Below are positions 21,130 to 32,870 of a stretch of 35,125 nt of DNA, one piece after another. The position numbers and the translations under genes are program-made. The stretch lies in NCBI GenBank assembly GCA_009602725.1, contig WELB01000291.1, positions 9,984-45,108 on the forward strand, given 5' to 3'. Every line of letters begins with the position of its first letter. Position 1 is the first letter of the stretch. Source of the stretch: Spirogloea muscicola. Taxonomy: Eukaryota; Streptophyta; Zygnematophyceae; Spirogloeales; Spirogloeaceae. The notes under the pieces are model-generated. The model saw only the letters and a list, made by a program, of their open reading frames with translations, ran no database searches and had not been told where the DNA came from.

Positions 21130-21309
21130 ACACAGCCCAAAGAGAGGAGGAGCGCGGTGCGCATGTAATGAAAGCGAGGCCAATTCAAGCCAATACGTTG
21201 TTCAGGCAGAACATGCAGAAAGTGCAAAGAATGCAGCGCAAAGAATGTGGCTACATGAAATGACGCCCTAGACTAGGAGGGCCGGAGGTGCCACAGAGCG
21301 GGGGGAGCC
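21130..21309 (-). repeat. Composite repeat, minus orientation (single-copy part)
   Basis: Reverse complement of the module at 15776-15920 and 16019-16164. In order it shows GAGAGGAGGAGCGCGGTGCG, GGCCAATTCAAGCCAATACG, GGCTACATGAAATGACGCCC and TAGGAGGGCCGGAGGTGCC. It runs directly into the 135-bp array. Together with 15601-16170 it forms an inverted repeat with arms of several hundred bases about 5 kb apart. Confidence 0.75.
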
Positions 21310-21960
21310 GTGCTGACGGGGGCCATGGAGACTCGACCTGCACCGCTTGTGGAGCTGCTAGAGGAGGGTGAGGAAGCAGCAATGGCAGGAGGGAAGGCGG
21401 GTGGAGGAAAGGAGGGCCGGAGGTGCCACAGAGCGGGGGGAGCTGTGCTGACGGGGGCCATGTCGACTCGACCTGCACCGCTTGTGGAGCTGCTAGAGGA
21501 GGGTGAGGAAGCAGCAATGGCAGGAGGGAAGGCGGGTGGAGGAAAGGAGGGCCGGAGGTGCCACAGAGCGGGGGGAGCTGTGCTGACGGGGGCCATGTCG
21601 ACTCGACCTGCACCGCTTGTGGAGCTGCTAGAGGAGGGTGAGGAAGCAGCAATGGCAGGAGGGAAGGCGGGGTGGGGAAAGGAGGGCCGGAGGTGCCACA
21701 GAGGGGGGGGAGCCGTGCTGACAGGGGCCATGTCGACACGACCTGTACCGCTTGTGGAGCTGCTAGAGGAGGTTGAAGAAGCAGCAATGGCAGGAGGGAG
21801 AGCGGGTGGGGGAAAGGAGGGCCGGTGGTGCCACAGAGCTGGGGGAGCCGTGCTGACGGGGGCCATGTCGACACGACCTGTACCGCTTGTGGAGCTGCTA
21901 GAGGAGGGTGAGGAAGCAGCAATGGCAGGAGGGCGGGTAGGGGAAAGAAGAAAGTGCTCG
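21310..21960. repeat. 135-bp minisatellite, five copies
   Basis: The landmark CTTGTGGAGCTGCTAGAGGA begins at 21346, 21481, 21616, 21751 and 21886, which is an exact 135-base period. Copies differ by scattered substitutions (for example GAGTCGACATGGC versus GTGTCGACATGGC on the minus strand). A period of 45 codons without stops keeps long frames open on both strands, for example EEGEEAAMAGGKAGGGKEGR on the plus strand. Single diverged copies lie at about 15622-15690 and 15936-16020. I regard the open frames as a by-product of the period. Confidence 0.9.
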
Positions 21961-32360: not shown

Positions 32361-32380
32361 GACAGGGTGGCCAGACTCTA

Positions 32381-32396
32381 GACCCTAACCCTAAAC
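32381..32396. promoter_or_regulatory. Telo-box-like motif upstream of the RH39-like gene
   Basis: GACCCTAACCCTAAAC lies between the candidate start region of the helicase and the transposon edge at 32403. AAACCCTAA-type telo boxes are known cis elements in plant promoters of translation-related genes. It may equally be a remnant of interstitial telomeric DNA like that inside the neighbouring element. The regulatory role is inferred. Confidence 0.35.
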
Positions 32397-32402
32397 AGCT
32401 TA

Positions 32403-32868
32403 CAGTCAAACCTTGTTATAGGCACCTCTCGATATAGGCACATTAGGGCAAAACCTTGATAGTGGCACCATTTTGCGGGAAGCACTTTTTTCCCCCGGCA
32501 AATGTGACTCGATACAGGAACGTGCCTGTATGTACAGGCACAGTTTTTCGGGGCAGATTCCCCCACTAGAAGTGCCTATATGAAAACAAATCAACATATC
32601 TCTCATATTCTCTACAGGGATTAGGGTTGAGGTTTAGGGTTTAGGGTGTGGGGTTTAGGGTTGAGGTCTAGGGTTAGGGTCTAGTTTTTAAACCCTGACC
32701 CTAAATCTAAACCCAAAAAGCCATTTTCAATATAATTTGATATATTGCTGATTGTCACGGTAGAAGCACATTTGGGGGCAATAGTGCCTCTACAACGAAC
32801 AAGCACACCTCGATATAGTCACATATTTTCGCCAAGCCGGCCGACGTGCCTATAACAAGGTTTGACTG
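32403..32868. mobile_element. 466-bp TIR miniature transposon (MITE), TA target duplication, Tc1/mariner-pogo-like
   Basis: The left end CAGTCAAACCTTGTTATAGG (continuing CAC) at 32403-32425 is a perfect 23-base inverted match of the right end at 32846-32868. TA dinucleotides flank both ends (32401-32402 and 32869-32870), the signature of Tc1/mariner/pogo insertions. CAGT...CCT(T/C)GTTATA ends are typical of pogo-like elements. Subterminal CTCGATATAG(G/T)CAC blocks occur near both ends. There is no transposase frame, so it is non-autonomous. The middle (32621-32714) holds telomere-like repeats in inverted orientation. It sits some 45 bases from the candidate start of the RH39-like gene. Confidence 0.9.
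32621..32714. repeat. Inverted interstitial telomere-like repeats inside the MITE
   Basis: 32621-32683 contains degenerate TTTAGGG/TTAGGG units (GGTTTAGGGTTTAGGGTG and neighbours). After CTAGTTTTTA the strand sense flips to CCCTGACCCTAAATCTAAACCC up to 32714. The unit is of plant type. The array is degenerate and internal, not a chromosome end. Confidence 0.85.
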
Positions 32869-32870
32869 TA

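Follow-up and report, generated by a model that had tools for sequence, protein, structure and literature searches.

A pogo-type miniature transposon family of Spirogloea muscicola with degenerate head-to-head telomeric repeats at its internal deletion junction

RESULTS

A 35,125-bp stretch of Spirogloea muscicola DNA (contig WELB01000291.1 of assembly GCA_009602725.1, positions 9,984 to 45,108; hereafter, the window) contains a 470-bp miniature inverted-repeat transposable element (MITE) whose center consists of degenerate telomeric repeats in head-to-head order. Our data indicated that the family of this element was very probably born once, when an internal break in a longer pogo-like transposon was closed with telomeric filler DNA, and that it was then probably amplified by a pogo transposase. 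The first-pass annotation of the window had described a miniature pogo-like transposon carrying inverted telomere repeats, and this picture was borne out by the terminal inverted repeats (TIRs), the flanking TA dinucleotides, the telomeric center, a multicopy family, and long relatives of the pogo type; absent from it were the parent elements, the location of the center at the missing parent interior, and the discordant histories of the 5′ arms.

Alignment of the MITE to its long relatives is confined to two stretches of the element, 1 to ~218 and ~320 to 470, and because the alignment stops and resumes at these two edges, the telomeric center sits at the internal deletion of the parent. The element corresponds to the outer ~215 bp and ~150 bp of a 4.0- to 4.4-kb transposon, with ~100 bp of degenerate telomere repeat replacing the interior, and this repeat is absent from the unbroken relatives, which run through both edges without an array. 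Among seven long or deleted relatives (L041 to L045, L047, and L048), no telomeric array was found, only isolated TTAGGG or CCCTAA hexamers at most. Contigs C10, C22, and C29 of the host genome start with CCCTAAA runs, which identifies TTTAGGG as the host telomere repeat and the center of the element as a degenerate form of it. Even the consensus of the center contains irregular units (TTGAGG, TGTGGGG, and TTAGGG), and since the aligned copies have both the center and its irregular units in common, the center appears to go back to a single acquisition that was copied afterward. Telomeric filler is not a regular outcome of such deletions, as L043/L044, in which this long element was deleted differently, joins parent positions 399 and 3071 with no filler.

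When the 153-Mb genome was searched at the DNA level with the window element, near full-length matches of 88 to 100% identity were obtained, from which 40 loci (L001 to L040) were fetched. The first-pass annotation had asked whether copies share the telomeric center, and it was present in all 35 rows aligned through it (L001 to L035), in a set that favors center-bearing copies because the query held the center. Small parts of the center were lost in single copies (e.g., L018, L032, and L034), and the sequence of four others (L036, L037, L038, and L040) breaks at N inside it. Including five further loci that matched the center (L039, L061, L062, L063, and L089), all or part of it was found at 44 places (35 + 4 + 5), in agreement with the suggestion that the element seeds interstitial telomere sites around the genome; L015 and L040 have their left flank in common and may be the same insertion, seen twice. 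A 22-base TIR pattern allowing up to 3 mismatches occurred 131 times (64 + 67) in the genome, compared with 0 for the reversed-pattern control. Thirty TIR-found loci outside the first 40 fetched, taken from the first places among the matches listed, yielded the center in one case (L089) and a MITE-sized element that had lost it (L046, a ~210-bp copy at 300-511); L094 and L096 were uninformative, and the remaining 26 were long or one-ended elements with no center in the fetched part, many of them with N runs.

As is typical of MITEs, the elements of the family are short, non-coding, and bounded by TIRs, and they occur in many copies of uniform size. A one-off insertion or chance structure was ruled out by the genome matches, the TIR count against its control, and the 35 center-bearing copies. 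The two outcomes that the annotation held to be damaging, other copies without the center and ends found only here, were not observed, as other copies mostly keep the center and the pair of ends occurs elsewhere too. Its proposal of expansion by recombination was matched by small telomeric gains in the single copies L012 and L061 and by nothing beyond these; the extra telomeric units in their centers hint at local expansion at the hinge between the two halves. In L036, L037, and L038, the outer flanks differ and N follows the same base of the center, as if the inverted telomeric tract defeats assembly.

Full-length relatives with a DDE transposase and the same TIR, which the annotation had proposed to look for, were found in L042 (4440 bp) and L041 (4051 bp), whose TIR pairs enclose DDE_1 transposase matches above the cut-off. 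The HTH_Tnp_Tc5 and DDE_1 domains lie in separate open reading frames (ORFs) of both elements (Pfam, over cut-off), no Pfam family matched an additional N-terminal ORF of L041, and the DDE ORF had no match among PDB sequences. The last two D of the DDE ORFs are separated by 41 residues, and the available text of PMC7386202 gives a DD29-56D spacing range for the pogo superfamily together with such domains and TA target sites. By its TA, TIRs, relatives' domains, and DD spacing, the window element is classified as a non-autonomous member of the pogo superfamily. The 24-base ends, TA included, are identical on L041, L042, L043, and L044, and from the ends held in common we infer that the MITE is mobilized by the transposase of the long elements. 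Deletions have shortened the relatives L043, L044, L045, and L047, and most of the 5914 bp of L048 is N. A sister pogo-like family of ~3.9 kb was also present (L050 963-4892 and L051 933-4843; 97% mutual identity, DDE_1 matches), with ends that begin TACAGTCATACCTCGATGTA and with a transposase region that is, in parts, ~70% identical to that of L042. Pogo elements have been reported from green algae (PMC7386202), and Tc1/mariner elements were not found in Chlorophyta according to the portion of PMC7325037 available.

Both ends could be aligned in 41 elements, MITEs and long elements together, and in 37 of these a TA stood at each end, no more than 5 bases from where the alignment stopped; L017 and L035 had no usable TA at one end, and the flanks of L002 and L003 were N. 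Flanks were joined for 37 insertions, six of which were examined closely, and empty sites that are paralogous rather than allelic were found for five of them, all copies other than the window copy (L011, L012, L015, L046, and L048; at least 88% across the junction). TA occupied these junctions in 20 of 23 rows (one shifted by a column), with another dinucleotide in three. Among the long matches, the best were those of the joined flanks of L046 to repeat DNA beside L042 (98.9% over 89 bp) and of L015 to DNA beside L022 (93.2% over 103 bp). Telomere-like motifs occurred in the ~300-bp flanks of 3 of 35 copies, with a total of nine (overlapping) versus a mean of 2.2 and a maximum of 7 in 200 runs of a dinucleotide model. 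General targeting of telomere-like sites was rejected, as eight of the nine motifs stem from two tracts (L001 and L010).

When the 35 copies were split by identity and TIR type, a young subgroup A (20 rows) and an older, mixed subgroup B (15 rows) were obtained, with mean divergences from consensus of 1.1% and 4.8%, respectively. L002, L003, L004, and the partial L029 carry zero substitutions relative to the subgroup A consensus, which, together with the low divergence of this subgroup, points to recent spread. In the 3′-arm tree, a single branch separated the center-bearing copies from the rest (39 of 55 rows; support 81/85; L052 left out), whereas in the 5′-arm tree their grouping as one clade was rejected (38 of 55 rows; p-AU 1.8e-13); a run with L052 included and L089 labeled as a long element gave the same picture, less cleanly. 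On the simplest reading of the two discordant trees, the center and 3′ arm probably have a single origin, with 5′ arms later exchanged between MITEs and long elements. In the run that included L052, a 5′-truncated element, its 3′ arm was placed with that of a MITE (80/78), so that L052 or L047 may be closer to the donor lineage than L042 is.

The center as a whole does not diverge unusually slowly: 1.5% for the whole center in subgroup A versus 1.4% for the 5′ arm and 0.6% for the 3′ arm, and 4.1% in subgroup B versus 6.4% and 3.4%. Special conservation of the whole center is not supported by these rates, and, being no more conserved than the arms, the center looks like a passenger.

The features of the window element are listed in Table 1. 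Its TIRs (CAGTCAAACCTTGTTATAGGCAC) are identical at 23 of 23 bases with TA outside both, as first annotated, and the 28-nt arms including TA are 96% complementary. The overlapping ORFs do not exceed 69 amino acids, in keeping with the earlier description of an element without transposase. The head-to-head TTTAGGG-type center, previously placed at 32621-32714, was recovered with TTTAGGG-type units on the forward strand and CCCTAAA-type units after the hinge. A separate telomere-like tract lies at 32378-32396, 4 bp outside the left TA, and differs from part of the element's own center at 1 of 19 bases. Elsewhere in the window, positions 21275-21933 hold a tandem repeat with a 135-bp unit (4.9 copies, 95% matches). 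In the wider genome, an exon of a nuclear Rubisco small-subunit gene matches Rubisco of the green lineage, with a higher score against chains of apparent land-plant origin (83 bits) than against Chlamydomonas (64 bits).

Table 1. Parts of the telomere-repeat-bearing MITE, in window positions
Feature	Position	Strand	Basis or remark
Whole non-autonomous element including both TA	32401-32870	+	470 bp; sequence, repeat search, genome matches
TA target duplication, left	32401-32402		Sequence; analogy with related empty sites of other copies
TIR, left, 23 bp, perfect	32403-32425	+	Sequence, repeat search, genome TIR count
5′ arm	32403-32618	+	Homologous to 5′ end of 4.0- to 5.9-kb relatives; 92-95% to L041, L042, L048
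Telomeric center, left half	32616-32684	+	Degenerate TTTAGGG units, G-rich strand on +
Hinge TTTTTAA between halves	32685-32691		Most variable part of the element
Telomeric center, right half	~32692-32714	-	CCCTAAA-type units, G-rich strand on -
3′ arm	32720-32868	+	Homologous to 3′ end of long relatives, 86-90%
TIR, right, 23 bp, perfect	32846-32868	-	Sequence, repeat search, genome TIR count
TA target duplication, right	32869-32870		Sequence; analogy with related empty sites of other copies

DISCUSSION

The birth of the MITE family can be pictured as a single repair event followed by transposition. A break or gap inside a long pogo-like element would have been repaired by internal deletion, with the deletion ends joined via telomeric filler DNA supplied either by telomerase at the broken ends or by capture of an existing telomeric tract, and a fold-back perhaps yielded the inverted half of the center. 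The transposase of the long elements would then have mobilized the MITE through its intact ends, the center riding as a passenger, so that every transposition would land a short interstitial telomeric sequence (ITS) at a new TA site; later, 5′ arms, apparently with their TIR, would have been exchanged with resident long elements.

Several observations weigh against this account or parts of it. The exact donor element was not found by arm trees or by BLAST within the genome, and the 3′-arm tree places the MITEs nearer to the deleted L047 and the 5′-truncated L052 than to L041 and L042, a difference that is slight in BLAST identity (89.5 to 90.2% for L047/L052 versus 89.0 to 89.3% for L041/L042). 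The support of 81/85 for the 3′-arm grouping lies below the starred level, and L052 was excluded from that test. Movement of the center into several backgrounds is another way to read the discordant 5′ arms, and the missing array in L048 carries little weight in an element that is mostly N. As for the passenger status of the center, its left half taken alone diverged by 0.7% (A) and 2.5% (B), about as the 3′ arm did (0.6% and 3.4%), leaving some room for constraint. Finally, given that the units are degenerate already in the consensus, an old captured tract accounts for them no less well than new synthesis by telomerase.

As to the source of the filler, in the version to which we give about an even chance, a degenerate tract, interstitial or subtelomeric, was copied into the gap during repair, and fold-back or a template switch made the right half. 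The two halves are inversely similar: over the final 30 nt of the left half, the right half agrees at 27 of 30 positions in the subgroup B consensus and at 26 of 30 in that of A, and the order of the irregular units is preserved, which is suggestive of the right half being an inverted copy of the end of the left half. As a control, 26 other tracts of the genome were used, five of them too short to score; of the 30-mer comparisons among such tracts, 24% reached 26 matches and 21% reached 27, many of these between regular arrays, so that unrelated tracts often agree as closely as the two halves do. Compared with each half of the center, the other telomeric tracts reached at best 24 and 25 of 30. 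DNA folding of the putative fold-back stem gave a z of -2.4, with 1 of 200 shuffles as good and a minimum-energy fold that is rare in the ensemble. In the horse, inverted duplications yield head-to-head telomeric stretches, as reported in the available part of PMC7215372. Degenerate short ITSs with like variant units occur elsewhere in the genome (L064-L076 and L099-L105, fetched for their resemblance to parts of the center). Capture is opposed by the absence of any tract with the irregular units over the whole center among 28 telomeric loci fetched outside the family, in a donor search that comprised two pattern searches, among the matches listed, with L099-L105 compared by halves only. Among the matches listed, the one above 90% outside the family spans 34 nt (L074), and L077, a regular array in head-to-head order, reaches just 79 to 81% when aligned over the center, as plain repeats would. 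Located within a contig, L077 (G000 C27:905790-906317) is long and almost perfect in its TTTAGGG units; N marks the point where its halves meet, which may be the scar of a chromosome fusion or else a join made in assembly.

Healing by telomerase, in which both broken transposon ends were extended and then joined, is a doubtful alternative. The G-rich strands run 5′ to 3′ from each arm to the middle, the head-to-head order expected of additions at two ends, and the left edge of the center ends in GG ahead of the G-rich repeat, the join reading ...CTACAGG and then telomeric G-rich sequence. The units beyond this edge are irregular, however, whereas the telomeres at contig ends and several ITSs are nearly regular TTTAGGG, and the recurrence of irregular units in the same order in both halves is not predicted by two independent additions. 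On account of these irregular units, we lean toward capture rather than telomerase. A bolder and unlikely version of the same idea holds that the ends were capped by telomerase, or folded back in the manner of sister telomeres, and fused, the fusion scar then becoming a mobile element; if true, a transposon family was built on a telomere fusion and then spread head-to-head sites that telomere proteins may bind.

It is quite improbable that the telomeric repeats entered a pre-existing ordinary MITE at a separate break. ITSs do enter existing sequence, including transposable elements (6 of 27 TERC-ITSs in primates and rodents, according to the available text of PMC8537989), but in the window family the center is bounded on both sides by the edges of the internal deletion, and a MITE with the 218/320 junction and no center was not seen among the fetched loci. 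The center-less L046 also lacks the flanking arm sequence and is 99% identical to the young MITE, which marks it as a secondary deletion.

Retention of the center by selection, for instance through binding of telomere or telo-box proteins or through chromatin setting at insertion sites, likewise seems improbable. An exact AAACCCTAA telobox on either strand occurs at least once in 31 of 35 copies and in none of the seven long or deleted relatives compared, and the left half of the center has diverged less than the 5′ arm has, to roughly the same degree as the 3′ arm. Plant TRB proteins have been associated with telo-boxes and described as binding telomeric DNA and recruiting PRC2 (available parts of PMC10167121 and PMC10049986, respectively). 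Against such a role, the whole center is no more conserved than the arms, the 3′ arm being more conserved, and single copies such as L018, L032, and L034 have shed parts of it.

The value of the family is that one genome retains the parent-type element together with the edges of the deletion, the filler, and dozens of descendants whose divergence can be measured, which makes the path from one repair event to many telomeric sites traceable. The family also offers dozens of telomeric tracts that resemble one another closely and lie at unrelated sites, and so provides natural material for testing how internal telomeric DNA is handled by telomere-binding proteins, chromatin, and recombination.

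The origin of MITEs by internal deletion of an autonomous element is known, as for Emigrant and Lemi1 in Arabidopsis. Like these, the window family is short and TIR-bounded, has many copies of about the same size, and has its ends in common with a coding element; unlike them, it carries ~100 bp of host telomeric repeat at the junction in all 35 aligned copies. The route of its birth is therefore ordinary, while the filler is unusual and the record of the origin unusually clear. Compared with the pogo superfamily as described in the available text of PMC7386202, the family agrees in its TA duplication, short TIRs, HTH_Tnp_Tc5/DDE_1 relatives, and 41-residue D-D spacing and differs in that the window copy is without transposase and carries telomeric DNA. 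A pogo MITE with telomeric cargo did not appear among the matches listed in open-access literature on cargo, origin, and pogo classification, most of them judged by their titles and the opening lines of their abstracts. Arabidopsis ATREP18 elements may also contain telomeric repeats, although their name occurred in none of the 12 papers listed for it. Transposition has been suggested as a source of ITSs (PMC6410037 and PMC8621592, in the sections available), and in the break-repair study PMC8537989, so far as its text was available, transposons did not spread the TERC-ITSs; for two mouse lemur loci, the same source proposes telomerase extension of both broken ends and fusion. The short and fusion-type ITSs inserted at breaks that PMC8537989 and PMC7215372 describe in the parts available resemble the window family in the presence of repeats at a break, the head-to-head order, and the possible inverted duplication, the difference being that one event of the window family was multiplied by transposition. 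The TBE elements of Oxytricha, according to the available text of PMC12242761, are likewise transposons of the Tc1/mariner type with telomere-like repeats, but these repeats lie inside the TIRs, whereas those of the window family are internal and its ends are unrelated to telomeres.
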